From Altererythrobacter sp. (lineage in GTDB: Bacteria; Pseudomonadota; Alphaproteobacteria; Sphingomonadales; Sphingomonadaceae), in NCBI GenBank assembly GCA_013002295.1, contig JABDKI010000034.1, forward strand, positions 1 to 35,022: a stretch of DNA of 35,022 bases. The letters are read 5' to 3'. This document shows, in pieces, positions 4,111 to 19,487 of the stretch (position 1 is the stretch's first letter; each line of letters begins with the position of its first letter). Below the pieces are notes generated by a model. It was not told the origin of the DNA and did not search any database. It saw only the letters and a program-made list of their open reading frames with translations. The translations under genes and the position numbers were made by a program.

Positions 4111-5142
4111 TCAGCGCTGCACCCGGCCCGAGCCATCTCCTGACATCAGCTTCTCAACCTCAGGCACAGTGACGCGATTGAAGTCGCCCATTATGGTGTG
4201 CTTCAGAGCGCTGGCAGCAACGGCAAATTCCAAGCTTTGCTGGCGGTCTTCGTAAGCGTTCAGGCCATAGATCAGCGCAGAGGCAAAACTGTCACCGCCC
4301 CCAACACGGTCAACAATGTCAGTCAGCTCATACTTGCGTGACAGCATGAATCCATCGTCGCGCGTGCGCAGACACGCCGACCAATTGTTGCGGTCCGCGC
4401 TCAAGCTTTCACGCAATGTAATCGCGATGGTGTGCATATTGGGGTAGATGTCGAGCACCTTCTGGCCCAGCGCCTCATACTTCTTCGTATCGAGTTCGCC
4501 GGATTCTACATCAACATCAACCGAGATATCGAGCGACTTCTGGCAGTCCTCTTCATTGGCAATGCCGACATCGACATATTTTACCAGCTCGCGCATGACT
4601 TCTGGCGCAGTCTTGCCGTATCTCCAGAGCTTCCCGCGAAAGTTGAAGTCGCACGAAACAGTCACGCCAGCTTCCTTCGCAGCCTTTACGCAAGCCATCG
4701 ACAGATCTGCAGCTGACTGGCTGAGTGCTGGCGTAATACCCGTAATATGCAGCCACTTTGCGCCCTTGAAGATTGTTAGCCAATCAAACTCGTCCATGCC
4801 GGCATTGCAGATCGAGGAGTTGGCCCGATCATAGACGACTTTGGAAGGACGTTGGTTCGAACCTGTCTCCAGAAAGTATATGCCAACGCGATCGCCAGAG
4901 CGGCTGATATGCGCAGTATCGACACCGAATTTCCGCAATTCCATGATCGCGTTTTCACCAATGTCATTGTCCGGCAGCGCGCTAACAAAACCTGCGTTCA
5001 GGCCGTAATTGCACAGCGCGACTGCCACATTGGCTTCACCGCCGCCAAAGGTCGCTTCGAAGCTCGGAGATTGGAAAAAGCGCTCATGACTCGAGGTCTT
5101 GAGACGCAACATGATTTCGCCAAAGGAGAGAAAGTCCGCCAT
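4111..5142 (-). CDS. kdgK: 2-keto-3-deoxygluconate kinase
   Basis: PfkB-family sugar kinase of 343 aa, predicted to phosphorylate KDG to KDPG with ATP in the cytoplasm, the last alginate-specific step before the Entner-Doudoroff aldolase. The substrate-side motif GGGEANVA is at 33-40, DFNFRGKLW at 165-173 is typical of KDG kinases, and the PfkB signature [13 protein letters not shown] ends the active site with catalytic base Asp284. Length is normal for the family. The ATG at 5142 has an AGGG Shine-Dalgarno. It is the last gene of the six-gene alginate operon, 35 bp after the SDR stop. No convincing terminator lies between its end and the convergent TIR gene. No KDPG aldolase gene is in the window. 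Confidence 0.93.
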
Positions 5143-5177
5143 TGTATTTACCCTGATCGAGTTGCTTTGGGCTTGGC

Positions 5178-5930
5178 TTACGAGAACGCCAAGCCGCCGT
5201 TGATGTCGACGTTCGCGCCGGTGATGAATGAAGCTTCATCGGACGCCAGATAAGCGACGAGATCTGCGGTTTCCTCTGCCTTGCCCTGACGACGAAGAGG
5301 CGTCGAATTCGCGACATTCTCTCGTGCGGCGTCCGGGGTGAACTTGTCATGGAATGTCGTCGCGATCATCCCGGGGCAGATCGCATTGGCACGGATGCCT
5401 TTCGGCCCCAGTTCTTTCGCCAATCCGCGCGTCATAGTCATGACAGCGCCTTTGGAAGTGGCGTAAGCGATAGCTCCGCCACCACCGCCGTCACGCCCAG
5501 CGAGTGATGCCAAATTCACGATCGAAGCACCTTCGCTCATGAACGGGACCGCCGCTTTGCAGGTCAGGAATGTCGATGTGGTGTTCAATTGCATGACGAA
5601 GTTGAAGAACTCTTCATCCATCTCTTCCAGCGTCTTGCGGGCGACCAAACCACCGGCATTGTTGACGAGAATATGGATCGCATCACCAAAGGTGTCACGG
5701 GATGCCGCAATGAGTGCGTCGACCTCGGCTGGCTTCGTGACATCGGCTTTGACTGCGATCGCTTTGCCGCCGGCGGCTTCAACCGCCGCCACAGTTGCAT
5801 CAGCATCGGCCTGATTGCTGTTGTAATTGACCACAACATTCGCGCCCTCGCTGCCGAGTTTGACGCAAACCGCACGGCCGATGTCTCGGCTACCGCCGGT
5901 CACTACAGCTGTTTTACCTGCGAATTTCAT
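5178..5930 (-). CDS. SDR oxidoreductase, probable DEH reductase
   Basis: Classical short-chain dehydrogenase/reductase of 250 aa. The cofactor-binding TGGSRDIG is at 11-18, NNAG at 90-93, and the catalytic Ser142, Tyr156 and Lys160 (YATSK) are all present; the C-terminus ends in the common [13 protein letters not shown]. In this context it most likely reduces 4-deoxy-L-erythro-5-hexoseulose uronate (DEH) to KDG with NAD(P)H, the role of the A1-R type SDRs in Sphingomonas sp. A1. This substrate is inferred from the neighbours, because SDR sequences alone rarely fix substrate. The strand after the Rossmann loop ends VVVNYNSN without an Asp, which is compatible with NADPH but not decisive. The RBS contains GGGGAC before the ATG at 5930. 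It lies between the MFS gene (34 bp) and kdgK (35 bp). Confidence 0.88.
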
Positions 5931-5964
5931 TACTTTGTCCCCGTCCTAAAAGAGTAAATTTGCG

Positions 5965-7239
5965 CTAAGCAGATTTTGGTTTGAGTGGTTTGATGTCGGG
6001 GCAGAAAATGAGCACCGACAATACGGTCATGATCGCGAGACCAGCGCCGACAAGGAATGCCGGAGTGTAGCTGTTCACGGTGATGACCGGGATTAAGAAG
6101 TTGAGGAGCACCACAGCGAGCTTGGCCGCTGTTCCGGCAAATCCCGCCAGCGAGCCTACTGATTTACCGCTATAGAAGTCGCTAGGAAGAGTTTGGATAT
6201 TTCCGACTGCCGTCTGGAAGCCGAACAGAATCACCGCCATGATCAGCACTGCTGTCAAGGGTGTGCTAGCCTGTGTAGTAGCGAGCAACGAGACGAGCAT
6301 AATCAGACCGCCAAGCCCGATAACGGTCTTACGGGTGCGATTGACCGTCCACCCCGCTTTGAGCCGGTTGCCAGCCAGCAAGCCGCCGAACCAAGCTCCG
6401 AACATGGCCCCCACATATGGGATCCATGCATAGACAGCGATTTCCTCGACACCAAAGCCGTAGGTATTGAGCAAGTAGATCGGCAACCAGCCAACAAACA
6501 GCCACCAGATCGGATCAAGGAAGAAGCTTGCGAGGATGACACCCCAGCTCTCTTTGCGGCTCAATATCTCTTTGGTGTCAGGAGCGTAATCGGCAACCTC
6601 ATTGGTCTCCACATTGCGCTGACCAGTCAAGATGTACTCGCGCTCCTCTTGGCTAATCCAAGGGTGCGCTTCAGGACCACTCTTGTAGACGATGAGCCAA
6701 GGGATCAGCCAAAGGAAGCCTAGCGCTGCAATAGCAACAAAGGTCGCTTGCCAGCTGCCAAGAAAGACAAATAGCAGTCCGATGATTGGTGCCGAAACGA
6801 TGCCGCCGATCGCTGCACCGGAATTGAAAATACCCTGCGCCAAGGCCCGTTCGTTGATCGGGAACCACTCGGCATTGGCTTTGGTGGCGCCTGGCCAGTT
6901 GCCTGCTTCGGACACGCCCAAGACCGCACGGAAGAGCGCGAAGGACAAAAGGCCTTGCGCAAATGCGTGAAGCGCCGTTGCAGCAGACCATACGACGATC
7001 GAGAGAACGAAGCCGAGCCGCGTTCCGATCCAGTCGAAGATCTTGCCAAAAATCGATTGGCCAAACGCATAGGCGAATGTGAAGACGTTGAGGATGATTG
7101 CGTAGTCATATTCCGTGAGCTCAAGCTCTTTGGAAATTTCGGGCCACAGGAAGCCAAGGGCGCCGCGGTCGATGTAATTGATCACCGTCGCGACTGCGAC
7201 GAGGACGACGATCCAATAGCGTAGATTGCCTTTGAACAT
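5965..7239 (-). CDS. MFS transporter, ACS family (uronate/DEH importer)
   Basis: Inner-membrane protein of 424 aa with about 12 hydrophobic segments. ACS-family (anion:cation symporter) signatures are clear: NYIDRGALGFLWPEI near residues 21-35 and SEAGNWPGATKANAEWFP in the TM4-loop region, as in hexuronate carriers of the ExuT type. In this locus it should bring the linearised unsaturated uronate (DEH), or the monouronate itself, from the periplasm to the cytoplasmic SDR and KdgK, probably by proton symport. The GGAGAG Shine-Dalgarno lies inside the end of kdgF, and only two bases separate the kdgF TGA from this ATG, so the two are probably translationally coupled. The exact substrate is inferred. 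Confidence 0.9.
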   Translation of the reverse strand: MFKGNLRYWIVVLVAVATVINYIDRGALGFLWPEISKELELTEYDYAIILNVFTFAYAFGQSIFGKIFDWIGTRLGFVLSIVVWSAATALHAFAQGLLSFALFRAVLGVSEAGNWPGATKANAEWFPINERALAQGIFNSGAAIGGIVSAPIIGLLFVFLGSWQATFVAIAALGFLWLIPWLIVYKSGPEAHPWISQEEREYILTGQRNVETNEVADYAPDTKEILSRKESWGVILASFFLDPIWWLFVGWLPIYLLNTYGFGVEEIAVYAWIPYVGAMFGAWFGGLLAGNRLKAGWTVNRTRKTVIGLGGLIMLVSLLATTQASTPLTAVLIMAVILFGFQTAVGNIQTLPSDFYSGKSVGSLAGFAGTAAKLAVVLLNFLIPVITVNSYTPAFLVGAGLAIMTVLSVLIFCPDIKPLKPKSA

Positions 7240-7241
7240 GA

Positions 7242-7604
7242 TCAGCTCTCCATTCCGAGAAAGTCTTCACGCGCCGGGCTGAATGTGTCGATCAGCACGC
7301 CGGGCTCTAGACAAACGGCACCGTGATCAAGGTGCGGCGCGATGTAGAAACTGTCGCCCGCTCCCAGCACTTGCTTCTTTCCGTCGACAAACACTTCGAA
7401 CTTGCCGCTTTCGACATAGGAGGATTGGCTGTGCCGGTGCGCGTGAACCTCACCAATTGAGCCTCGATCAAACCACACCTTGACGATCATGAGGTCGGGT
7501 CCATAGCCCAAGATTTTTCGGCGTATTCCTCCGCCCAGATCCTTTTTTTCTATGGCCTTGTCTGAGACAAAGGTCTCGCTTTGGCCGACTGTTATGGTCG
7601 CCAT
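7242..7604 (-). CDS. kdgF: Cupin protein, KdgF-type uronate linearisation enzyme
   Basis: Small single-domain cupin of 120 aa. The first cupin motif is GEVHAHRHSQ with metal-ligand candidates His54, His56 and Gln60; the second is APHLDHGAVCLEPG with His94. KdgF proteins convert the 4,5-unsaturated monouronate released by exolytic lyases into its open-chain ketone, speeding what is otherwise spontaneous chemistry. Position between the PL17 gene and the transporter fits this. No signal peptide is seen, so it is predicted cytoplasmic, which would require the transporter to accept the cyclic monouronate or both forms. The ATG at 7604 has a strong AGAGGGGAA Shine-Dalgarno and lies one base past the PL17 stop; a longer open frame upstream to 7643 only overlaps PL17 and is not the start. 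Confidence 0.9.
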   Translation of the reverse strand: MATITVGQSETFVSDKAIEKKDLGGGIRRKILGYGPDLMIVKVWFDRGSIGEVHAHRHSQSSYVESGKFEVFVDGKKQVLGAGDSFYIAPHLDHGAVCLEPGVLIDTFSPAREDFLGMES

Positions 7605-7605
7605 T

Positions 7606-9786
7606 TCAGTTCCCCTCTTCACCCAAGACGATCCGCCCGGCAAAGCCTTTCCAACGGACGGTTTGACCGTCGGCTAAAGCGTTATGTGTTAGGTCAGGAT
7701 CATCATGATAGGAGATCGCCAATACGGTCTTCGCGCCGTTCTTGGTTTCGACGATCACCACGTCGTATTCGTTATGTTTTTGGTACCGCAGCGACCCGAT
7801 AAGGCTTCGGCTGTCGATTGTTTGTTCGGTTGCACCGTCATAAAGTCCGTGCGATTCCAGTGCGCTGACAAATGTAGCGCTGCTGGCGTCGGTCACACGT
7901 TGAATGACCATCGGTTCGCGCCGCAGATTGAACTTGGGGTCGTTTGCTCCGCTTTCGCCTAGGATAATATTCCCATTTTCCTGAGGCACAAACCGATAAG
8001 TGTAGAACCGCCCATCGAGGATCCATGTCATGAAAGCCCTGTCCGCCTGCGGCATCGAAGTGCCATCAACCCAGACGTGCTGATACCCGTGGCCCGATCC
8101 CAGAACGGGACGGCCAGCAACATTGCGTGCCACCTCGAAGCCGGTTTCCATGATATGACCCGAGTAATGCAGCGGCAGATCAAACTGTGAAGATTCGTCG
8201 CTGCCAGCCCGCAAAACATCGATCACGACCGGCTCTGCCAGGCCCGCTACTTCGAGCATCGCCATCGTGCGCGTCATCGTTACACCTTCGTAGGCGCTAT
8301 CGATCGTCGCAGTGCTTACCTGAAGATCGGCTTCCGAAGAGAAATACAGCTGCGTCGGCGCAAACTTGTCAGCATGTTTGCCGTCACCGCCGAAATGGCT
8401 CGTCTCGTTTACAACCAGAGCGTTGTGCGCGATCGTCTGCTTGGCCCAACTTTCATTTTCAGGAAGGTAGCGCCCGCCCTCTTTGGCTTCGATATTGAGA
8501 AAACGAGCCGCGCCATAATCTCGCACGATTTCGTGCCCGTTGGCATACAATTGCCAGCTGAGCTTGTCGAAGTGACCATGGCCCATGCCTTGAGAGCTGT
8601 TCTTCGCGACCAGGGCAGTGTGGCGCGGCCCTGAGCCATGCCGGAAGATCGCAACCGCACCTCGGTCACCATCTGGCCCGTCAGTCAGGAGCATGGATTT
8701 GAAATCAAACGGCTTGGCTTTGCCCGCGGCGAGATCGCTTGAAACAGCAAGACCGTTCTCGTTGAGAACAGTTCGGTTCTGCCATTTCGCAATCGAAAGT
8801 AAGCCCGGATCCTGTGACACGCCATATGCAATCGCCACGCCTTCGTAGAGCTCGGCGGTATTTAGGCTCTTGTCCCTGATCGCGTCATTGAACGGAAAGA
8901 AATAACCGCCGTATGTCAGCTGGATCGTCGTTGTGATGGCTTTTTGAAGGATACCATCGCGATGTTCGAAAATCCGGCGCTCAGGCTCATTGCGCTCAAT
9001 ATCATTCGCGAAAACCACGAAAGGAAGCAGCGCGAACCGCTGATAATACGGGCCTTCTGTGTAATAGCCATCAGGTGAGAACAGCAATTCGCTTTGACGA
9101 AGGAAGCCTGCATCACCACTTTTGTCAGAGCCTAGCAATGCACGGTCAACCATGTCCTGGTCGCCAAGCAGATAGCCAGTCATGCCAACCCCGGCCGTTG
9201 CCCAGGTTGCATGATTGTGAATACGATCAAATGTCCGCTGCGAGTCCACAGAAAGAAATTTCACTGCCGGGCGGAAGACATTGTCATCAATCCGCGCGCG
9301 CTCAGTATCGGTCAGAGTATCGCGGACATCGCGATAGCCTTGCACGGCGTGGACCAGCCACATTGCGTCGTTGAGCACTTGCCAAAATAGCCTGCCGACA
9401 TTCTGGTTAGCTTTCGCCGGATGATCACCCAATGTCGGATACAGCTCCGCATACGCCAAAAGCATGTCGCGCACATAGACGCGATATTTCTCGTCACCGG
9501 TTATTGCGTAGAGCTGTCCGCCTTGATGTATCGCGCGATAGTTCCGCTTGTGCTGCTCGTGCGTATAACCGCCGCCCGGATCCTTAGGGACCGGAACGAC
9601 GACCCCCTGCTCCATCATCGCATGGACGAACTCTTGCGCTCTTTCCATTTCATCCTGGAACAAGGGTGGAAGCTGTGAGGTCGCCTCGCCACCCCCAGGC
9701 GAGACGACCTCGGGACGTGCAGCTGCCTGACCGGGTTGTGCCATGGCACAAAATGCCAAGGCGGCTGCGAGAGAAATAGCCTTCAT
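7606..9786 (-). CDS. Exolytic oligoalginate lyase, PL17 family
   Basis: Protein of 726 aa with a type I signal peptide (about residues 1-22, ending near QAAA). An N-terminal alpha/alpha-barrel alginate-lyase domain is followed by a heparinase II/III-like beta-sheet domain. Residues matching the PL17 oligoalginate lyase Alg17C are visible: Asn191 and His192 (IHNHATW), Tyr248 (TEGPYYQR), His403 (GMGHGHFDK) and Tyr440 (GGRYLPENESW); their mutual spacing agrees with the Alg17C set Asn201/His202/Tyr258/His413/Tyr450 as I recall it. It should remove unsaturated monouronate from alginate oligomers in the periplasm. The ATG at 9786 forms an ATGA overlap with the PL6 stop; an in-frame GTG at 9792 is less likely. 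GAGGGTGAG upstream can act as its RBS. Confidence 0.95.
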   Translation of the reverse strand: MKAISLAAALAFCAMAQPGQAAARPEVVSPGGGEATSQLPPLFQDEMERAQEFVHAMMEQGVVVPVPKDPGGGYTHEQHKRNYRAIHQGGQLYAITGDEKYRVYVRDMLLAYAELYPTLGDHPAKANQNVGRLFWQVLNDAMWLVHAVQGYRDVRDTLTDTERARIDDNVFRPAVKFLSVDSQRTFDRIHNHATWATAGVGMTGYLLGDQDMVDRALLGSDKSGDAGFLRQSELLFSPDGYYTEGPYYQRFALLPFVVFANDIERNEPERRIFEHRDGILQKAITTTIQLTYGGYFFPFNDAIRDKSLNTAELYEGVAIAYGVSQDPGLLSIAKWQNRTVLNENGLAVSSDLAAGKAKPFDFKSMLLTDGPDGDRGAVAIFRHGSGPRHTALVAKNSSQGMGHGHFDKLSWQLYANGHEIVRDYGAARFLNIEAKEGGRYLPENESWAKQTIAHNALVVNETSHFGGDGKHADKFAPTQLYFSSEADLQVSTATIDSAYEGVTMTRTMAMLEVAGLAEPVVIDVLRAGSDESSQFDLPLHYSGHIMETGFEVARNVAGRPVLGSGHGYQHVWVDGTSMPQADRAFMTWILDGRFYTYRFVPQENGNIILGESGANDPKFNLRREPMVIQRVTDASSATFVSALESHGLYDGATEQTIDSRSLIGSLRYQKHNEYDVVIVETKNGAKTVLAISYHDDPDLTHNALADGQTVRWKGFAGRIVLGEEGN

Positions 9787-12050
9787 TCGCACTCACCCTC
9801 AGCAAAGACATTGCCTGAGAGCAACGCGCGATGCGGCCCGTCATAATTCAACTCTTCCAAAAGCATGTCTGGAGTTTCTGCAAACTGGTTGTCGCTGATT
9901 GTTGTGCTGGGCGTCCCGACAGTGTGCACCACTCGCAAAGGTGCGGAGCTCGCCACGTTGTTCTCGGCGATCTCTGCCACTTGAACGCCGTGCAAGTGGA
10001 TTGACCCGCCAGTCCCGTTTGTCGCTGCCAATCCGACATCGGAGAGATTGTTGCGAAGGACTTTGACGTAAGGCCCAAAGGTGCTTTCATCGCGACCACC
10101 GCGATAGATATTCGCGATCGGTCCGCCAATTCCCGCAAAATTGCTATCGAGAATGTCGAGATACTCGACATTATATTGGCCAAAGTCTTCAGTCTCGGCC
10201 GCAGCTGAAACGATTGACCCAGTGATATTGGAAAAATTGCTGTTGCGAATGGAGATGCTGTTCGCAAATGCGCTCTTGCCCAAGGTCAAAACGTTGAATG
10301 ACTTGTTGACCATGAGATCCCGGACCGTGACGCCGTCCAGCTCGATCCGCATATTGGATTGAATCGGAAAACTCGTCGTCCGGATCATCGAATTCCCGAC
10401 AGAGTCGGGCGTCAACGCGCCGTCAATAACGAGATTCTTCAATTGGAGATTGCCGCCCTGACGAAGCTCGAACAATGTCGGGCGCGCGAACATTATTCGA
10501 GGCAATTCCTCGCCTTCAACTAGCTTGCCTCGGAGCGCGATTGTGCTGCCAATCGCCATTGTGCGATCCACAATGTAGTCGCCCGGTTCTAGCACCAGAA
10601 CGTCGCCGGCCTCGGCAGAAAGCAGTGCTGTCGCAAGCGAACCATCGCCAGGTGCAACCGAGATTTCGCGGCCCGATTCCCCGAAGGCTATTTCTTGGCC
10701 TGGCTTGGGATACCACTTGACCCCAACGCTATCGAGCGAAAGCACCTCTAGGTCGCGCGGAGCACCCACTTGTGCCAACGCCGGATCAAGCGGATAGAGC
10801 AGTCCGTTCTCCGCTCGCTGCATTTCAGCCGGCGCCTGCACAAATCCCAGCAAGGCTTCGTCAACATCGCCAATGAGCACGCGATTGTCGCTAAAGGCAA
10901 TTCCTGACGTGTCATCATAGCGCTCGACGAACGACTCGCCTTCGAGCCCGCTCAACAGATTGTTTGCGAACACGCTGTTGAGAGGAGGAGCCGAACGCTC
11001 TTCATCCGCCCCAACATTGAACGCGACGCGGCGACTATCAACGATAGTGTTATGCTCAATCACCGCGCCATCGACTTCGACATAGCGATTGACGGGTGAG
11101 TTGGGCACACCATTCATCACCGCCAGCGCGCTCGAGAACGCTTTGCCGCGCAATCCCTCAAGATAGTTGCCTCGCACCGTCTGGTGACGGTTGATAACAC
11201 GGATGCCGCCGGTGTGGTTCTCGCCATAGCCGAGGAACACGTTACGTTCGACGAGATTACCATCCCCATGGCGCAGGGTCAGCGTGCCTTGAGCCCGCAA
11301 GAACAGATTGCCACGGAAGATATTTTCGCCGGATTTGGACGAAATGATTTCAACCTCACCACTGGTACGGTCGAAGACATTGTTCTCTACCGTCGTGTTC
11401 GAATTGTACATCGAATAGCGACTGGTTCCGATCCGCAACGTCTCACCACCATTCGAACCCAGCGGCGGACGCGGGCCAAAATAATTGTGATCGATAAGGT
11501 GTCCGTTCTCGCGGCTCTCCTCGCTATCCAAACGAACAGCAAGAGTGACGCCTTTGTTCGTCTTTCCAACCAAATGATTGTGATCAAATCGGTTGTTGCT
11601 GCCATACATGCCGACCCAATAGTCAGACTCATATCGATCAGGTTTGCTGAAGTTGTCGACCACCACTTCGGTGACCCGGCTATTGCGCGCCTGGTCCTGC
11701 TTAGTGCGACGGAACGAAATCACTTCGCCGCGCGGGCTGTATCCGTCTTTGAAAACAAGACCGGTGACAAGAATGTGCTCGCCGCCAATCCTGAGGCTCG
11801 ATTGGCCGGTTAGAAAGACCTTGCCAGCCTCCTCCGAGATAACGGTGATGGGTGCACCTGGGCGACCTTCCCCAGTGATGACGAGTTCAAAATCTCGCCA
11901 CTCGCCATTTGCTAGAATGATGACGTCGCCGGCTTCGATCTGCGTGAGGGCGTGCGCATACTCGTTCTGATTGCGCACGAAATAGTGCTCTGCGTTGGCT
12001 GGAACAGCCAAGACAAACACCAACAGGACAAGGCAAAGCCTTGCAAGCAT
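9783..12050 (-). CDS. Alginate lyase, PL6 family, two-domain type
   Basis: Protein of 755 aa with a signal peptide cleaved after ANA (residue 20). Repeated short strands with Asn ladders (NNRFDHNHL, TTVENNVFD, NIFRGNLF, NLVERNVF) mark a parallel beta-helix. The PL6/chondroitinase B catalytic pair is visible as Lys239 (SSKSGENIF) and Arg260 (LTLRHGDGN), 21 residues apart as in chondroitinase B; acidic residues in NGGETLRIG and SGEVEII are likely calcium ligands. A second beta-helix follows from about residue 440, as in the long two-domain PL6 enzymes. It should depolymerise alginate in the periplasm or at the cell surface, feeding PL17. First gene of the operon; RBS AGAGGA. Chondroitin/dermatan as substrate is possible by family but does not fit the KDG pathway genes downstream. 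Confidence 0.94.
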   Translation of the reverse strand: MLARLCLVLLVFVLAVPANAEHYFVRNQNEYAHALTQIEAGDVIILANGEWRDFELVITGEGRPGAPITVISEEAGKVFLTGQSSLRIGGEHILVTGLVFKDGYSPRGEVISFRRTKQDQARNSRVTEVVVDNFSKPDRYESDYWVGMYGSNNRFDHNHLVGKTNKGVTLAVRLDSEESRENGHLIDHNYFGPRPPLGSNGGETLRIGTSRYSMYNSNTTVENNVFDRTSGEVEIISSKSGENIFRGNLFLRAQGTLTLRHGDGNLVERNVFLGYGENHTGGIRVINRHQTVRGNYLEGLRGKAFSSALAVMNGVPNSPVNRYVEVDGAVIEHNTIVDSRRVAFNVGADEERSAPPLNSVFANNLLSGLEGESFVERYDDTSGIAFSDNRVLIGDVDEALLGFVQAPAEMQRAENGLLYPLDPALAQVGAPRDLEVLSLDSVGVKWYPKPGQEIAFGESGREISVAPGDGSLATALLSAEAGDVLVLEPGDYIVDRTMAIGSTIALRGKLVEGEELPRIMFARPTLFELRQGGNLQLKNLVIDGALTPDSVGNSMIRTTSFPIQSNMRIELDGVTVRDLMVNKSFNVLTLGKSAFANSISIRNSNFSNITGSIVSAAAETEDFGQYNVEYLDILDSNFAGIGGPIANIYRGGRDESTFGPYVKVLRNNLSDVGLAATNGTGGSIHLHGVQVAEIAENNVASSAPLRVVHTVGTPSTTISDNQFAETPDMLLEELNYDGPHRALLSGNVFAEGECE

Positions 12051-12085: not shown

Positions 12086-12113
12086 ACAATACGGACAGTC
12101 CGATGATTGTCAA
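12086..12113 (-). promoter_or_regulatory. Promoter of the alginate operon with a palindrome in its spacer
   Basis: On the minus strand a perfect TTGACA (12113-12108) is followed after 16 bases by TATTGT (12091-12086), about 36 bases before the PL6 ATG. The spacer contains CGGACTGTCCG (12102-12092), a perfect 5-bp inverted repeat with a one-base centre, and GACAAT/ATTGTC arms (12085-12090 and 12106-12111) extend the symmetry. A factor bound there would block polymerase. TTGAC plus GGwCTnGnC in the spacer is shared with both receptor promoters. Confidence 0.6.
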
Positions 12114-12139
12114 TCAATCTGGACTGATATTTGTTAGAT

Positions 12140-12156
12140 TTTTTGTAATACCAATT
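12140..12156 (-). promoter_or_regulatory. Putative GntR/FCD operator A (alginate operon)
   Basis: The plus strand reads TTTTTGTAATACCAATT. The family operator form is AATTGGTnnnACCAATT; here the right half is perfect and the left half keeps the TT and GT positions. It lies 26 bp upstream of the TTGACA at 12113, about -60 to -80, and 4 bp beyond the regulator gene's stop. Three further copies are at 12918, 16240 and 19471. Confidence 0.5.
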
Positions 12157-12159
12157 GAA

Positions 12160-12900
12160 CTAGCCGATTGTGGAGGCTTTGAGAAACCGCTGCCGGCTTT
12201 CTGAAGCTCGCGCTTGCACCTCTTCAAGCGCCCTGCGCTCGGTTGCTTCCAGCATATTCTCCAGAAGGCGATGGAAATGCTCGCGCATTGCATTACGTGC
12301 GCCAGCCGGATCGCGCGCCTTTAACGCATCGAAGATTGCACGATGCTCGGCAGTGCGTGATTCCGCATCATGCACACAAACGGATTCGTAGGTTGCCTTA
12401 ACCTCGGGAATGTCTTCGCGCATTCTCCAAAGCGACTGAATCGTATGAACCATGGCGGCATTGTTGGATGCCTCGGCAATGGTCAGGTGAAATTGTTCGT
12501 CAGCTTCGTTGGCAACATCATCATCTTCAGAACGCATCAGTTCGACCAACCCGGCCAGCTTTTCGATCGCATCGTCGGTAATGTTGTGCGCGGCAAGTGC
12601 CGCTGATTCAGACTCGACCAGCAATCTGGCCTCTGTCACTTCGAATGCGCTGGCACGAGGCAGATTGTGCGCCATCGTTGGCGCGTTTTCGCTTACGTAG
12701 ACACCTGAGCCGGTTTTAATCTCCAAACGGCCAATCGCTTGTAGCGCGATTTCCGCTTCCCTGATCGTGACACGACTAACCCCTAGTTTCTCCGCAAGCT
12801 CCCTTTCACCGGGCAATCGCGTGCCGGGCGGGTAAGCGCCCGCATCGATCAAACCTGCAATTTGCTCTGCAACAGATTGAAAGAGTCTCTTACTCGACAT
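12160..12900 (-). CDS. GntR-family regulator, FadR/FCD subfamily
   Basis: Transcription factor of 246 aa. The winged helix-turn-helix covers residues 1-72, with the subfamily signature GERELAEKLGVSRVTIRE and wing GRLEIKTGSGVYVS. The FCD effector domain (about 85-225) keeps the metal-binding set Asp134, His138, His186 and His208, so it probably binds a carboxylated sugar acid through a metal. In this locus KDG, DEH or a related uronate is the likely ligand. It sits between the PL6 operon and the receptor genes, all on one strand, with ACCAATT-type sites upstream of each unit and of itself, suggesting it controls the whole locus. Start: ATG at 12900 with AGAGG upstream; the TTG at 12903 is not needed. 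FCD proteins are usually repressors, but the site positions could also suit activation. Confidence 0.92.
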   Translation of the reverse strand: MSSKRLFQSVAEQIAGLIDAGAYPPGTRLPGERELAEKLGVSRVTIREAEIALQAIGRLEIKTGSGVYVSENAPTMAHNLPRASAFEVTEARLLVESESAALAAHNITDDAIEKLAGLVELMRSEDDDVANEADEQFHLTIAEASNNAAMVHTIQSLWRMREDIPEVKATYESVCVHDAESRTAEHRAIFDALKARDPAGARNAMREHFHRLLENMLEATERRALEEVQARASESRQRFLKASTIG

Positions 12901-12917
12901 CAAAACCTCTACTCAGG

Positions 12918-12934
12918 AAACTCCTATACCAATT
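12918..12934 (-). promoter_or_regulatory. Putative GntR/FCD operator B (regulator promoter)
   Basis: AAACTCCTATACCAATT lies 17 bases before the regulator's ATG. The ACCAATT half is perfect and the other half is poor. On the coding strand it supplies TATAGG, a weak possible -10, so binding would suit autorepression. It shares ATACCAATT, two variable bases and ACTAG with site A. No strong -35 is visible and the spacing to a TTGAC box seen at the other sites is absent. Confidence 0.4.
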
Positions 12935-12977
12935 TCACTAGTCAGTTTGCTGCCATTTGACCAGCGTGCATGTGGAT

Positions 12978-13009
12978 GGCCGGCAACCCGGGGAAGCGCG
13001 CTGCCGGCC
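12978..13009 (-). terminator. Hairpin downstream of the first TonB receptor
   Basis: GGCCGGCA (12978-12985) and TGCCGGCC (13002-13009) form a perfect 8-bp GC-rich stem with a 16-base loop, starting six bases after the receptor stop. There is no following T run on the minus strand, so it may be a processing or stabilising hairpin rather than a full intrinsic terminator. Confidence 0.45.
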
Positions 13010-13015
13010 GAGCCA

Positions 13016-16000
13016 TTAAAACTTGAAGCGGACACCTGCGAAATAGCGTGGTCCGTAGACCAGCACCTGACTTAGATCGTCAGATGCGCCGCGGAAATCG
13101 GTCCGTGGTTCATTGAACAGATTGATGCCTTCGAGTGTAAAGCGAACATTGTCATTCAGCTTGAATGACGCACGCGCTTCGAAGACCCCGACGCTGTCCA
13201 CGAACCGCAAGCGTCCAGGCGTCGAAACGAACTGCTGGAAGTAAGTGCTTCGATATTTGTAGACGCCCTGGAAATCGAATGGACCGATTTCGTAGTAGGC
13301 CTGCGCCGAAAGGACATGCTTGGAGAATCCCGGCAGGTTGCCAGGCGCAACAAGTCCATTGCTCGTCGTACGCGTGCCATCGCTGGCCACACTCGTGATC
13401 GCCCCCAGCACATCGTCCTCGAACTCGAAGTTTGAGTCCGCATAGTTGTAGCTGACCTTGAACCCCAGCCCGTCGAGCGGCTGTGGCAGCCAACTCAGGC
13501 GGTGAGCCGCAGTAACTTCGACTCCGTAAATCGTCGTGCTGTCGTTGCTCGTATCAACTGAGGTTGTAAACAGACTTAGGCTTTGCCCGTTGATCTCATA
13601 GTCCTCGAAAAAGCCAATCGTCTCGAAGCCGCCATTGAAGCTCTTGTAGTATGCGTTGAAGGCAAGCAGCGAGTCGTCGTTCGGATACCATTCCAAACCA
13701 GCATCGACGTTCCACGAAAGCAGTGGCTCAGTCGCAGGATTGCCTGTGGCGCTGACATTATTGAATCCACCAGCGAGCGCATCGCCCACTGTTAGAAACT
13801 CATCATCATCGTTGAAACTGAAGATGCGGCCATCACCAAGATCGGATGGATCTGGACGCGACAGCGAACGATAGAACGCGAAGCGGCCAAGCAAATCGGG
13901 CTGGAACTCTGCAACCACATTCACGCTTGGCAGGAACTCGGTGTAAGACGTATCAGTCAAGCGGCGGACCAAATTGGTCGAATCTTCGACCAATACAAAT
14001 CCGCTCGTTCCGTCGCCATCCAAGTCCGCAAGTTCGACTGTGAAGTCTGAGCGGAAGCCAGTCGACCGGATCGAAGTATTCACGACTCGAAGGCCGACAT
14101 TGCCCCGCACCGGCATGCCGCCCCAATCGCTATCGAAATTGGCTTGGACGTAGCCCGCCCATGTACGCTCCTCAACGTCGGTATTCTGAGCCGATAGGAA
14201 ATCGCCCGTAGGATAAATCGGAATACCGTCATCATCGAACTCAAGGCCCGATGGATCTTCGCGTTCAAGCACACGCGCTATGCACAATGCATCAAACGTT
14301 GCGAAGGTATTCGACGTTCCGATCACGTTGCCATCAAGATCGACGTTGGTGATAAGCGGGTTTCCGCCCGAAATTGACGATAGGAATCCAGATTCAGGGA
14401 AGTTTGTGCGACATTCCTGGTTGGCAACAAACAACGCGCCCGAACCATCAGTGTCGTTGTAGGTGTTCTCGAAACGACTTGATCCGCGAACAGCCCCTGG
14501 CACATCGCGGTATGTTAGCTGCTGATAGCGCGTACCAGCTAGAATGGCCGAGAAGAAACCTTCCGTTTCATACTCAACGTCTCCACGAACCGCCCAGATC
14601 TCATTGAAGCGATCTTGCTCCAGATCGGCGCGCAAGCGCGGATCGTTGGCGAAAAGGGTATAGTCGTTGACATCGAAGTTCTGCGTCACAAAGTTCAGAC
14701 CTTGCGACCCGTTCTGGAAAATCTGAACTGCCGTCTCAATCCGGTCATCTGTACCATTTGTACGGCCAGAATTTGGAGTTTGATCGCTTTCGAACGCTTC
14801 AGGGAAAAACGGATTTCCATCCGCATCTGTATTGCCAAAAATGCTTTCGCCGTCTTCGGTACGGAAACGGATCTGGACCGCCTCCTCGATGCGCTGCGTA
14901 CGAGAATAGGAAGCATCGAGCGAAACATTCAGGCGGTCAGTTGGTCGAAACTCGACTGACAATCCGCCACCGTAATATTCTTCGTCGCGCTCAAGGTATT
15001 CGCTGACCGCTTCAACTCGCTGCTCGTTGGTAAATTGCCTGAGCGCGCCCGTTTCAGTGACGATCAGAGGTAAGTTGATCCGATTGGGATCACCGGGGCC
15101 GTCTATGCGACGACTTTCTGCAAAGTTCAGATCGCTGCGCTGCTCTTTCTGCACACGATTGGAATATTGGAAGTCCAGATTGATATCGACATCCGGAGAT
15201 GGCTGATACTGGACCGCACCAAAGAATGCGTCGCGGCGCTCCTCGGTGATGTTGGAGCGCAACGCATAGCTGTTGCGCGCAATGAGAAAATCTTCCGTTA
15301 CGGAACCGTCACGCAGGCCTGCAATCGTCGAACTACTCGTATCGCAATTGCCGTCGTCGAACACACCATCGCCCGTGTCATTTGGATCGATGACGCAAGG
15401 GCGGACTGTGCCGGATACTCGCGCTTCTTGCTCAGGATTGTTCGAGTCAACGCGCGAGAAACCAAGCGAAACACCGAGCTCACCTTCACCCAGATTGAAT
15501 TGATCGACATAGCTTAGCGTGCCGCGGTACCCGAACTTATTGAAACGCTGATCTGAATCGATATCTAGATTGTCGGGATTGATGTTTAGCTTGAAATCAC
15601 CCTGTATCCGCCGCTTACCGTAGTCGAGCGGACGAATGGTCTCCAAAACGATCTGACCCGCGACACCACCTTCGATGTAGCTTGCGGCTTGCGTTTTGTA
15701 GATGCCAACCTTGTTGAAGAGCTCTGATGGGAAGACACTGAAGTTGACTGACCGGTCACCGCTGCCGTTGGTCGCCACCCTGCCGTTTACAACTGTCGAA
15801 CTCAGAAAAGGCCCAAGTCCACGAATGGAAATCTCAGTCGCGCCGCCGTTTTCACGGTGCGAGCCCGCACCCGTGAGAGTTTCAAGCGCCTCACCAATAG
15901 ACAGCGCAGGAAGATCACCGATCTCATCAGCCGAAAGCGCATCAAACACTTCGGTCGATTGACGCTTTTCATCGATCGAGTTTTGGATCGTCGCGCGAAT

Positions 16001-16153
16001 GCCGGTGACGACGATTGTACCTTCATCAGCCTCAGCAACATCCGCTTGATCCGCATCTTGGGCCATCGCTACACTTGGCAATGCAATGGCAGCCAAGGCA
16101 CTACCGGCCATAAGGCGCGCGAAACTACTCTTCTTCGAATGAATCTTGCCCAT
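13016..16153 (-). CDS. TonB-dependent receptor 1 (probable alginate oligosaccharide uptake)
   Basis: Outer-membrane receptor of 1045 aa. The signal peptide ends at SVAMA (residue 31), the TonB box is GTIVVTGIR (45-53), and the plug domain contains ALSIGEALETLTGAG and ISIRGLGPF. The remainder is a long beta-barrel ending in the aromatic signature GVRFKF, as needed for BAM-dependent insertion. It should move oligosaccharides too large for porins across the outer membrane using TonB energy. Alginate oligomers are the likely cargo because the lyase operon lies downstream on the same strand and its promoter shares a conserved module with that operon and receptor 2. Start at ATG 16153 with an excellent GGGGAGGAA Shine-Dalgarno. 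Its length is typical of Sphingomonadales carbohydrate receptors. Cargo specificity cannot be read from sequence. Confidence 0.93.
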   Translation of the reverse strand: MGKIHSKKSSFARLMAGSALAAIALPSVAMAQDADQADVAEADEGTIVVTGIRATIQNSIDEKRQSTEVFDALSADEIGDLPALSIGEALETLTGAGSHRENGGATEISIRGLGPFLSSTVVNGRVATNGSGDRSVNFSVFPSELFNKVGIYKTQAASYIEGGVAGQIVLETIRPLDYGKRRIQGDFKLNINPDNLDIDSDQRFNKFGYRGTLSYVDQFNLGEGELGVSLGFSRVDSNNPEQEARVSGTVRPCVIDPNDTGDGVFDDGNCDTSSSTIAGLRDGSVTEDFLIARNSYALRSNITEERRDAFFGAVQYQPSPDVDINLDFQYSNRVQKEQRSDLNFAESRRIDGPGDPNRINLPLIVTETGALRQFTNEQRVEAVSEYLERDEEYYGGGLSVEFRPTDRLNVSLDASYSRTQRIEEAVQIRFRTEDGESIFGNTDADGNPFFPEAFESDQTPNSGRTNGTDDRIETAVQIFQNGSQGLNFVTQNFDVNDYTLFANDPRLRADLEQDRFNEIWAVRGDVEYETEGFFSAILAGTRYQQLTYRDVPGAVRGSSRFENTYNDTDGSGALFVANQECRTNFPESGFLSSISGGNPLITNVDLDGNVIGTSNTFATFDALCIARVLEREDPSGLEFDDDGIPIYPTGDFLSAQNTDVEERTWAGYVQANFDSDWGGMPVRGNVGLRVVNTSIRSTGFRSDFTVELADLDGDGTSGFVLVEDSTNLVRRLTDTSYTEFLPSVNVVAEFQPDLLGRFAFYRSLSRPDPSDLGDGRIFSFNDDDEFLTVGDALAGGFNNVSATGNPATEPLLSWNVDAGLEWYPNDDSLLAFNAYYKSFNGGFETIGFFEDYEINGQSLSLFTTSVDTSNDSTTIYGVEVTAAHRLSWLPQPLDGLGFKVSYNYADSNFEFEDDVLGAITSVASDGTRTTSNGLVAPGNLPGFSKHVLSAQAYYEIGPFDFQGVYKYRSTYFQQFVSTPGRLRFVDSVGVFEARASFKLNDNVRFTLEGINLFNEPRTDFRGASDDLSQVLVYGPRYFAGVRFKF

Positions 16154-16187
16154 TGGTTCCTCCCCGGGGGTTCAAATTTTTCAGGCA

Positions 16188-16256
16188 AGCTAAAGACCAG
16201 ACCGGAAGAGTCAACCTAAAGAATATGCCAATGTGGAAATGTTTGTCCTACCAATT
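16188..16256 (-). promoter_or_regulatory. Promoter module of receptor 1 (operator C plus TTGACT)
   Basis: The upstream element TGTCCTACCAATT (plus strand, ending at 16256) is followed on the minus strand, 25 bp from the 17-bp operator frame, by TTGACT (16214-16209) and by GGTCTGGTC in the spacer. A weak -10 such as TAGCTT is near 16192-16187. The order and spacing match the receptor 2 promoter base for base in position, 42 bases from the first A of AATTGG to the TTGAC box. Confidence 0.55.
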
Positions 16257-16277
16257 TGGCGCGTGATCCATCCACAA

Positions 16278-16308
16278 CGAAAAAGCGCCCCGCAATGCGA
16301 GGCGCTTT
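16278..16308 (-). terminator. Intrinsic terminator of receptor 2
   Basis: On the minus strand AAAGCGCC, a short inner CGC/GCG pairing, then GGCGCTTTTT form a GC-rich stem followed by a T run (plus-strand arms 16282-16289 and 16301-16308). It lies about 34 bases after the receptor 2 stop and before the receptor 1 promoter, so the two receptor genes are probably separate transcription units. Confidence 0.75.
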
Positions 16309-16341
16309 CGCGTCAACCAACCCGTAGGCTGAAAGCCAGAG

Positions 16342-19300
16342 TTAAAAGCTCAGTGTTGCACCGAAGGTGATCCGGCGATCCGGCAAGCCTTGGAAGCACA
16401 GCAGTGCATCGTCATTGACGCAGTACTGTTCAATCTTGGATTTGGTCAGGTTCACACCTTCCACACCAAGGCTGAGATAATCGGTCACATCGTAGACGAT
16501 GCTGCCGTTCAGCTGTCCGCGTGCCGAGGTCACAACCGGGAAACCCAGGGTCGAGTTCAGTGAGGCTCCGGCCGCTGTATCAAGCGTTCGGAAATCATCA
16601 CGCCATGTGTAACGCGCTCGCGCTGAAAGGCCGAACTTCTCATAGTAAAGCGTGACGTTGTAGGCATGCTTTGAGAAGTCGAGCAGCCCCTGAACTCGTT
16701 CAACCGGCACGCTTATCGATGGATTGATAGCTTGGAAAATGTCTTCGCCGCGCCCAGAGTTTGCGTTGGTCGCTTCGCCACCGCTGAAGTCCTGGTAGGT
16801 GTAGTTGGCGATCAATCCAAAACCCGACGCGAAGCCAAGTGTATCTTCGTATTGCGACAAATCGTACTGGAAGGCGACTTCGATACCCGTCTGCTTTGTG
16901 CTCGATGAGTCATTGACGATCGTCTGAAGTGGAACACACAGACCATTACCAGGCACATTCGACAATACGTTACGGTCTGGTACCGGGTTAAAGATGCCGC
17001 CGCCTTCGCATGGATCGGTAATGTCGCGGAAACCGTTTGAATCCTCAACGGCGTCCTCAACCTGGGTCACAAACAGATTTGTGCGATCCTTGTGGAATAC
17101 ACCAATACTGATCAGCGAAGATGGCGCAAAGTACCAGGACAGCGATGCATCAAATGATTGCACTGTCTCAGGCGCCAGGTTTGGATTGCCAAGGGCCACG
17201 GCATTATTCGGCCCAGTTGGGAACGAAACCGACAAAGACAGATCATTAAAGTCCGGACGATTGATGTCCTCGGTATAGCTAGCCCGGAAGACCAGATCTT
17301 CGGTCAAGTCCGCGATCAAGTTCACCCGCGGCATGAACTCGCTGTAACCACCGCTTGATGTCACCGGAGAGGCAACACCATTTGCGATCGCGTTACCGAA
17401 TGAATCGATACTGGTATCCACCCACCGGAAGCCTATGTTGCCCCGGATAGAGCCGGCCTCAAAATTGGCCTGCGCGTATAGCGCATGGGTTTGCTCTTCC
17501 ACACGGAATGATGCGCCGAGGTTGCCTGAGGCATTCGGATCAAGATCTGCCAGCAAACGGCCGCCACCGGCGATAGCAGCCTGCCCGCCCGGCGTCGCGT
17601 CAAGAGCCGCCTGCAGTTGCGCAAAGACTTCATCGCGGTTGGAGAACGCTTGGTTTGGATCGACCACGACAAAGTTGCGGAACGCCAAGGTTCGGCCATC
17701 GAATGCACCGAAATTGCTTGGACCCTGCACAATCAAGCCTGCGAGCGACGAGCCGCTTGGACTGTTGTTGATCGAACCGGTGCTAAATGTGGAACGCAGC
17801 TGATCGAACTGTGTCGAGCTGTCATTGTATCGATAGCCCGCATCGACCGAAGTGATGAAACCGAGCACACCGTCCAGATCGAGAGTAGTGTCGATGCGGA
17901 ACGCATCTTCCTTATTCTCTGTGCGATTGTTGCTGTTAGTCACTGCGTCAAGAACCGTGTTTGCCGGATCGAGCAATTGCGCGACAGTCGGAGCAAATGG
18001 CGAATCGAAATCAACTCCGAATGTGAGAGCACCGCCAGACAGATCATAGATGAATGGCACTGAGTTATCATTGCTGGAGCCATCAAGCGGCGTCAGCGGA
18101 TTCGGGTTGATGAAGTTGAGCGTGGTGCTCAGATTCGGGCTTGAAGAATCTGACGTCGAGCGTGCGAATTCGACTCGGGTGGTCAATCGACCGGTTTCGA
18201 ATTCTGAGCCTAAACGATAAAGCTCGCTTTTTGTGACACGAGCCCCTGTATCGCTAGAAAAGCGCAAATTCGGATCGTCATCATCGCGCGCAAGGTTTGG
18301 CTGGATTGTGCCCCGCAACGCCGCTTCGATGCTACCCAATTCCACGCCATCCAGCGAGCCAAAATTGATGGTTTCGAAAGCGTCTGGAACATTGTTGAAG
18401 CGTAGAGAGCTAACACCGGAACCCTGAATGCGCGAGCTGTCCTGACGACGCTCCTGATCATTGTAGATAGCATCGACGAAGAACATCAAGCTATCGCTTG
18501 GCGCCCACTCCAGCGAGCCCGCCAGATTGATTGTCTCATATTCGAAATTTTCGCGCTCCTGGTTCAGGAACTGGATTCCGAGATAGGGGAAAGCTGGCCC
18601 AGGCGAACCATCAGCGGCCACGCCCTGACCAGGTAGAATTACAGTGTCGCGGTCAACACGTGGCCGGAAAGACGTCGCCTCCTGCTCTGAATAGCTACCG
18701 CTGACCACAAGGCCGATCTCACCGCCACCGGTTTCCCAAACGTTGCCATAACTTCCCGAAAAGCGCGGCGTAACGCTATCAGACAACTCGCTATATTCGC
18801 CTTGCGCGCGGAAAGAGATGATGCGGTCGCTGATGTCCAACGGGCGAATTGTGCGTAGGTTGACGGTACCACCAACCGAACCCTCGATCGTTCCTGCGGT
18901 CGGAGCCTTGATAACCTCAACCGAGCCGATGATGGCCGGATTGATATCTTCGAAACTGATACCGCCACGTCCTGTCCCGGCCGATACTGTTTTCACGCCG
19001 TTGATCAGCACCTGGTTGTCGTTTGTGCCACGGATCTGAACACCGGTGCCGACGCCGGCCGTACGGGTGATCTGAATGCCTGTTACGTTTTCGAGAACTT
19101 CAGCCAGGTTCTGATCGGGAAGCTTACCGATATCTTCTGCCTGAATGACTTCGATGATGCTGTCGGCATTGCGTTGTTCATTCAGCGCGCTCTGCAACGA
19201 ACTGCGGATGCCGGTGACAACAATCACATTGCCTTCTTCCGATGCGACGCTCGAATCACTCGAATCTTGAGCAACCGCGACTGAAGGAATCGCAAGAACA

Positions 19301-19383
19301 CCTAAGGCTGTTCCGGCAAGCGCCCTTGTAAGAACACGTGAATTCAAAGCGGTTGAACGGCCGCGACCTGCAAATCTAGACAT
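16342..19383 (-). CDS. TonB-dependent receptor 2 (probable alginate oligosaccharide uptake)
   Basis: Outer-membrane receptor of 1013 aa from the ATG at 19383, which has GGGAGG six bases upstream; a GTG at 19395 is in frame but lacks such a site. The signal peptide ends SVAVA (residue 38), the TonB box VIVVTGIR is at 53-60, and the plug contains LPDQNLAEVLENVTGIQI and GVQIRGTNDNQVLINGV, the form common in Xanthomonas- and Sphingomonas-type carbohydrate receptors. The barrel ends ITFGATLSF with a terminal Phe. It belongs to a different receptor type from receptor 1, since the plugs differ, so the two may take different oligomers, for example different M/G composition or length. Regulation appears shared with receptor 1 and the lyase operon through the upstream module. 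A clear terminator follows. Confidence 0.93.
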   Translation of the reverse strand: MSRFAGRGRSTALNSRVLTRALAGTALGVLAIPSVAVAQDSSDSSVASEEGNVIVVTGIRSSLQSALNEQRNADSIIEVIQAEDIGKLPDQNLAEVLENVTGIQITRTAGVGTGVQIRGTNDNQVLINGVKTVSAGTGRGGISFEDINPAIIGSVEVIKAPTAGTIEGSVGGTVNLRTIRPLDISDRIISFRAQGEYSELSDSVTPRFSGSYGNVWETGGGEIGLVVSGSYSEQEATSFRPRVDRDTVILPGQGVAADGSPGPAFPYLGIQFLNQERENFEYETINLAGSLEWAPSDSLMFFVDAIYNDQERRQDSSRIQGSGVSSLRFNNVPDAFETINFGSLDGVELGSIEAALRGTIQPNLARDDDDPNLRFSSDTGARVTKSELYRLGSEFETGRLTTRVEFARSTSDSSSPNLSTTLNFINPNPLTPLDGSSNDNSVPFIYDLSGGALTFGVDFDSPFAPTVAQLLDPANTVLDAVTNSNNRTENKEDAFRIDTTLDLDGVLGFITSVDAGYRYNDSSTQFDQLRSTFSTGSINNSPSGSSLAGLIVQGPSNFGAFDGRTLAFRNFVVVDPNQAFSNRDEVFAQLQAALDATPGGQAAIAGGGRLLADLDPNASGNLGASFRVEEQTHALYAQANFEAGSIRGNIGFRWVDTSIDSFGNAIANGVASPVTSSGGYSEFMPRVNLIADLTEDLVFRASYTEDINRPDFNDLSLSVSFPTGPNNAVALGNPNLAPETVQSFDASLSWYFAPSSLISIGVFHKDRTNLFVTQVEDAVEDSNGFRDITDPCEGGGIFNPVPDRNVLSNVPGNGLCVPLQTIVNDSSSTKQTGIEVAFQYDLSQYEDTLGFASGFGLIANYTYQDFSGGEATNANSGRGEDIFQAINPSISVPVERVQGLLDFSKHAYNVTLYYEKFGLSARARYTWRDDFRTLDTAAGASLNSTLGFPVVTSARGQLNGSIVYDVTDYLSLGVEGVNLTKSKIEQYCVNDDALLCFQGLPDRRITFGATLSF

Positions 19384-19417
19384 ATTCCCTCCCACAGGAT
19401 TTCTTTTCTCTCATGTC

Positions 19418-19487
19418 CGGATAATGTCTAGACCATATATGTCAACCGGATAAATATACCTTTGTGGGTAATTCTGTCCTACCAATT
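19418..19487 (-). promoter_or_regulatory. Promoter module of receptor 2 (operator D plus TTGACA)
   Basis: ATTCTGTCCTACCAATT (19471-19487) lies 25 bp upstream of a perfect TTGACA (19445-19440). The spacer holds GGTCTAGAC, including the palindrome GTCTAGAC, and TATCCG at 19423-19418 is a possible -10. The 13 bases TGTCCTACCAATT are identical to those in front of receptor 1. The remainder of the 323-bp gap, 19488-19706, holds a T run at 19502-19508, a terminator-like hairpin, and nothing else recognised. Confidence 0.55.

Follow-up and report, generated by a model that had tools for sequence, protein, structure and literature searches.

The locus described here raises the question whether two TonB-dependent receptors and an alginate operon are controlled together, through a shared promoter module, by the GntR-type regulator encoded between them. 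It lies in a window of 35,022 nucleotides (the whole stretch of DNA that was analysed), which is one of the contigs of a host assembly of 2.1 Mb that is 88% complete.

Gene content and promoter module of the window

On the minus strand, the genes follow in the order TBDR2, TBDR1, FCD-type GntR regulator, PL6, PL17-type oligoalginate lyase, cupin, MFS, SDR and PfkB-type kinase. The initial annotation had named an FCD-GntR regulator, TonB receptors and an alginate-lyase operon, and these labels are backed by Pfam and NCBIfam matches. Such matches identify TBDR2 (16342–19395) and TBDR1 (13016–16153) as TonB-dependent receptors. The regulator (12160–12903) was assigned from its Pfam FCD and GntR domains and an orthologue alignment, and the alginate operon (4111–12050, with a KdgF-like cupin) from its ORFs, Pfam and NCBIfam matches and synteny; the oligoalginate-lyase model gave 972 bits, which is under its curated cut-off of 1400. 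The nearest regulators among the named genomes are 93% identical and belong to uncultured Erythrobacter.

A 17-base element had been reported upstream of all three units, each time followed by TTGAC on the minus strand, and both the sites and their spacing were confirmed. The 13-mer TGTNNTACCAATT, four bases before which the 17-mers start, occurs exactly at 12144–12156 (PL6 operon), 16244–16256 (TBDR1) and 19475–19487 (TBDR2). Read on the minus strand, the sites are AATTGGTA(TT/GG/GG)ACA. We designate them O1, a candidate operator with the sequence AATTGGTATTACA in the operon promoter and AATTGGTAGGACA in both receptor promoters. The minus-strand TTGAC, the predicted -35 box, is located at 12113–12109, 16214–16210 and 19445–19441, respectively. 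This corresponds to distances of 26, 25 and 25 bp from the 17-mer and 43, 42 and 42 from AATTGG, as claimed, or 30, 29 and 29 bp after the 13-mer.

The genome-wide search proposed with the initial annotation yielded three matches to AATTGGTANNACA-N15-40-TTGAC in the 2.1 Mb assembly, all within the window and upstream of the targets at this locus, and none for the backwards control. The bare 13-mer was rejected as a genome-wide marker, with 5 exact and 13 one-mismatch occurrences (18) in the assembly compared to 11 for the backwards control. Its two exact copies outside the window (on contigs C36 and C171) lie within opposite-strand ORFs, 151 and 154 aa long, with no TTGAC following in the stretch examined.

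Conservation of the module in related loci

In a first set of 25 loci (the window and 24 others), exact NATTGGTANNACA was followed by TTGAC within 10–59 bp in 19 cases, all of them at 28–31 bp. The reversed pattern gave no exact match in the same loci and one with a single mismatch. Exact cores without a nearby TTGAC occur as well, for example before the regulator gene of locus L062. From these 25 loci a rule was fixed, namely NATTGGTANNACA with at most two mismatches, 28–31 bp before TTGAC and at most 330 bp from the start. It was applied to a held-out sample comprising 30 of 36 named loci found by regulator similarity; the other six, contigs already present in the first set, were left out. 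L135 (Steroidobacteraceae, 39%) is part of this module test, but lies outside the 29 loci used for the regulator gene.

The held-out module was found upstream of 26 of 27 PL6, 22 of 24 TBDR2 and 16 of 26 TBDR1 homologues, compared to none of 158 upstream regions of regulator, PL17, KdgF, MFS, DEHR, KDGK and GH15 genes; the reversed control gave none. Conservation upstream of orthologous alginate loci, set beforehand as a test of the module, is evident. O1 and TTGAC are 29 bp apart in 49 of 64 held-out promoters, 28 bp in 11 and 30 bp in 4. As the held-out loci are related and were chosen by their regulator, they are not independent trials, and the main point is the comparison between target and other genes of the same loci. 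In marine bacteria of the Erythrobacter type, the promoters for alginate uptake and degradation thereby have these short sites in common, at a constant distance.

Second operator copy, promoter anatomy and the site before the regulator gene

Three features are absent from the description in the initial annotation: O2, a second copy of the operator; a variant of it upstream of the regulator gene; and, within some core promoters, further operator cores. O2 is located about 23 bp downstream of O1 and in most of these promoters adjoins the -35 box, with TTGG at -17 from TTGAC. On the minus strand of the window, the candidate O2 lies at 19452–19464 for TBDR2 (GGTAT, 23 bp from O1) and at 16221–16233 for TBDR1 (ATTGGCAT); both fall on conserved columns. 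The O2 region of the PL6 operon spans 12114–12132 (ATCAGTCCAGATTGA). The receptor form is GGTATG, its two G residues being present in 15 and 14 of 16 promoters and in 36 and 35 of 38 held-out ones. The PL6 form is tAtgCCAGATTGA, with CCA in 26 of 26 held-out promoters, and in L057 O2 is the palindrome TTTGGCATGCCAAA. That O2 is the same operator as O1 is supported by TBDR1 promoters in which a poor O1 stands beside a near-perfect O2 (L121 with 12/13, L122 with 13 and L130 with 11). Despite these few striking cases, the scores of O1 and O2 show no anticorrelation over all promoters, and neither site reaches 10/13 in 14 of 74 receptor and 6 of 46 PL6 promoters. GG directly before TTGAC was observed in 36 of 38 held-out receptor promoters at each position, and GA in 26 of 26 PL6 promoters.

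Downstream of the -35 box, the TBDR2 promoter has the -10-like TATCCG (19418–19423), in which T and A at +22/+23 are conserved, and the PL6 promoter has TATTGT (12086–12091). PL6 promoters of relatives are near consensus, with TTGACA and TATAGTC. Receptor -10 boxes look weak.

The element GGwCTnGnC had been placed in the spacer of all three promoters. It is present at 16195–16203 and 19426–19434, while the operon promoter has GGACTGTCC instead. As part of a three-promoter module it was rejected, since its 9 occurrences in the window are at chance level, 6.9 being expected, and PL6 promoters have no GG there. The -35/-10 region holds operator cores in 4 of 40 promoters (mean of 500 shuffles 0.23, highest value 3), the 40 being those with at most three mismatches among 48 listed promoters, a list that takes only promoters with TTGAC. 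Inverted TCATGCCAA occurs in this region of four related held-out TBDR2 promoters (L104, L105, L107 and L108), and TTGGTATGA in that of L103. In its best fixed register, the receptor spacer element scored 3.29 of 9 against TTGGTATGA (maximum of 500 shuffles 2.93) and 3.41 against the inverted word (shuffle maximum 2.97). In receptors, GGwCTnGnC (GGTCTAGAC in the TBDR2 spacer) may be a degenerate third operator, which is missing from many promoters. One row of the held-out promoter alignment, TBDR2 of L110, is mis-anchored.

Before the regulator gene, the window contains the operator variant AATTGGTATAGGA at 12922–12934 (minus strand). The variant, AATTGGTATAG, precedes the regulator in 8 of the 13 loci whose regulators reach 72% identity or more (one AACTGGTATAA counted) and in 15 of 29 held-out loci, compared to 0 of 126 other upstream regions. 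The right half normally seen is absent from it, and 14 of the 29 loci do not have the site. Just before it, a conserved CTGGA-N16-nCTAGG was noticed by eye in several loci (window positions 12890–13000, L052–L057), which might serve the regulator as an unusual promoter.

The regulator, its probable mode of action and known systems

The regulator belongs to the FadR/FCD subfamily of GntR proteins, with an N-terminal winged helix and a C-terminal FCD domain. Its matches to PF00392 (GntR, 64.3 bits) and PF07729 (FCD, 88.7 bits) both exceed the gathering scores. In a Foldseek search with the AF2 model (pLDDT 90, pTM 0.65), GntR-type regulators were the best matches (6az6, E 8e-11, TM about 0.48). 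The putative metal ligands D135, H139, H187 and H209 are invariant in 30 aligned sequences; the pattern was compared with the ligands named for DgoR, Ps5454 and Tm0439 (PMC7674646). The predicted operator TTGGT-ATG-ACA(A/G) agrees in sequence with the FadR-subfamily form TKGT-N2/3-ACMA, the consensus being given as TKGT-N3-ACMA in the source (PMC4494728).

Taken together, the sites are very probably bound by the regulator of the same gene cluster, in a well-supported, conventional circuit. Comparative genomics lends strong support to the claim that all three units are under the control of one local FCD protein, namely through the conserved placement of the module, its joint occurrence with the gene for the regulator and the fit to the subfamily consensus. 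The target set is well supported by these comparisons, and we infer from there to binding, sign of control, cooperation, effector and promoter positions. We consider it fairly probable that the protein acts as a pathway-specific, autoregulated repressor on a small alginate regulon, working through tandem operators and being released by an alginate breakdown product. The regulon would consist of the two TonB receptors, the PL6-PL17-cupin-MFS-SDR-kinase operon and the regulator itself. Dimers would occupy tandem copies of TTGGTATGACA, the centre of O1 lying near -70 and that of O2 near -47, next to the -35 box, positions that assume TTGAC to begin near -36; some receptor promoters would offer a further copy (O3) between -35 and -10. 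RNA polymerase would be obstructed at O2, and also at O3 in promoters that have one, and cooperative binding to O1 would raise the affinity. Release from the DNA would follow when the FCD metal site takes up an alginate-derived acid (DEH, KDG or an oligouronate). Such an acid is a reasonable candidate effector because the FCD metal ligands are invariant and DgoR is described as requiring metal for binding its sugar acid (PMC7674646).

The initial annotation had read O1 as a single asymmetric site near -70, better suited to activation or looping. This conclusion is weakened by O2 at the -35 box, the variant at the regulator gene and the operator cores inside some promoters. According to this alternative, the same regulator and targets would be involved, but effector-bound FCD dimers near -70 and -47, a tandem pair phase-locked to the -35 box across the family, would contact RNA polymerase at the catabolic promoters and the protein would repress its own gene only. 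We regard this as unlikely, although the tight phasing of O1 leaves it an appreciable share of the probability, and the weak-looking -10 boxes of the receptors also speak for it. If this reading holds, the polysaccharide locus would be governed by an FCD regulon of dual mode, with a geometry like that of class I/II. Near-consensus promoters such as those of PL6 in relatives make repression the simpler assumption, and it is further favoured by the O2 copy abutting the -35 box, the site at the regulator gene, the operator cores in core promoters and AusR, the described alginate GntR regulator, also being a repressor in the accounts cited (PMC8286568, PMC7874173).

Several observations count against the repressor model. 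The distance of O1 from TTGAC departs from 29 bp by no more than 1 bp, which is more rigid than a simple roadblock needs. Some promoters have neither O1 nor O2 at 10/13 and the strengths of the two sites are not anticorrelated, the regulator-gene site has one half and is often missing, the O3-like element is missing from many receptor promoters, and the O1 module is missing at 10 of 26 held-out TBDR1 homologues.

Another possibility is that the sites are real, but bound by a DNA-binding protein other than the neighbouring FCD protein, which we judge improbable. Among 199 genomes of the family, 54 have a regulator match at E ≤ 1e-30, and in 22 the match reaches 54% identity or more. The strict module TTGGTATNACA-N27-32-TTGAC was found in 13 of the 199 genomes (18 places; control 0 in all). 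Of the 22 genomes with such a close regulator, 10 are without it, as a different binder would allow. However, it is present in the other 12 compared to 1 of the 177 remaining genomes, and that single match (G090) is inside an ORF. The 54% cut was picked after the results had been seen, and at E ≤ 1e-30 the ratio is 12 of 54; Fisher values for the co-occurrence make the evidence look stronger than it is, as they take genomes that are related to each other for independent ones. The fit to the FadR-subfamily consensus (PMC4494728) and the operator variant before the regulator's gene likewise argue for the FCD protein. That the likeness is a functionless remnant of one duplicated promoter region is very unlikely given the held-out conservation: the two window receptors do have further bases in common around the module, as had been noted, but the conserved columns of 16 receptor promoters are mainly O1, O2, GGTTGACA and the -10 area, PL6 promoters differ in the form of O2 but keep the spacing of O1, and receptors located elsewhere (G160) or inverted (TBDR2 of G180) retain the module.

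The best NCBIfam neighbours of the regulator are ExuR and UxuR of enterobacteria, which serve the hexuronate pathway through KDG and bind operators of the AATTGGT..ACCAATT type. An equivalog assignment was rejected, as the scores of 125.5 and 107.0 bits compare to NCBIfam cut-offs of 396 and 442; unlike in those systems, the right half-site is degenerate here and the copies are in tandem. Close in logic is AlgO of Sphingomonas sp. A1, which we take to be a GntR-type repressor. It is likened by description as a regulator of alginate genes in a sphingomonad, as here (PMC8286568). As described in the same source, that strain imports by a pit and an ABC system, whereas the window encodes TonB receptors and an MFS carrier. 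AusR of Zobellia galactanivorans is described as a GntR-family repressor of alginate genes with single, double or triple operator copies (PMC8286568, PMC7874173). Family, target genes and multiple operator copies are alike, although AusR is flavobacterial and the likeness is one of description, motif and orthology apart. NanR of E. coli is an FCD-type repressor that binds direct GGTATA repeats cooperatively, and GGTAT repeats are also present in the window promoters. A NanR-type repeat operator was rejected: in the account cited, under half a helical turn separates the NanR repeats, and a 32-residue N-terminal extension is required for cooperation (PMC8012715), whereas the copies in the window are spaced by about 23 bp and the DNA-binding domain begins at residue 9, without such an extension. 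The system is best read as a locally encoded FCD-GntR alginate regulon, its logic close to AusR and AlgO; it is neither an ExuR/UxuR equivalog nor NanR-like in repeat spacing. Among the literature matches listed, none describes this regulator or operator.

For the use of alginate across Erythrobacteraceae, the module provides a cis-regulatory code that can be put to the test, and its conserved two-operator geometry offers a clean test of FCD action from about -70 and -47. Of the 22 genomes whose regulator reaches 54% identity, 21 (all but G082) were searched with a looser pattern. This gave 32 matches, 21 of them at alginate loci or receptors and 11 elsewhere (control 3); 8 of 9 inspected among the latter lie within an ORF of at least 150 aa. 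The ninth, outside any such ORF (L142, G153:C1:367450-367493), is a possible extra target or due to chance. In 21 genomes without a regulator match, the looser pattern occurred once, in an ORF (control 5).

The module can also flag alginate receptors distant from the operon, as in G160, where a second module precedes a lone TBDR2 homologue on another contig. This homologue (L090, G160:C3:176069-176113) is far from the alginate operon and adjoined by an MFS-type gene in the opposite direction. A further genome contains a second alginate cluster (L091, G146:C1:1363001-1374644) with TBDR1, a diverged regulator paralogue (48–49% identical) and PL6, and the receptor of this cluster also has the module.
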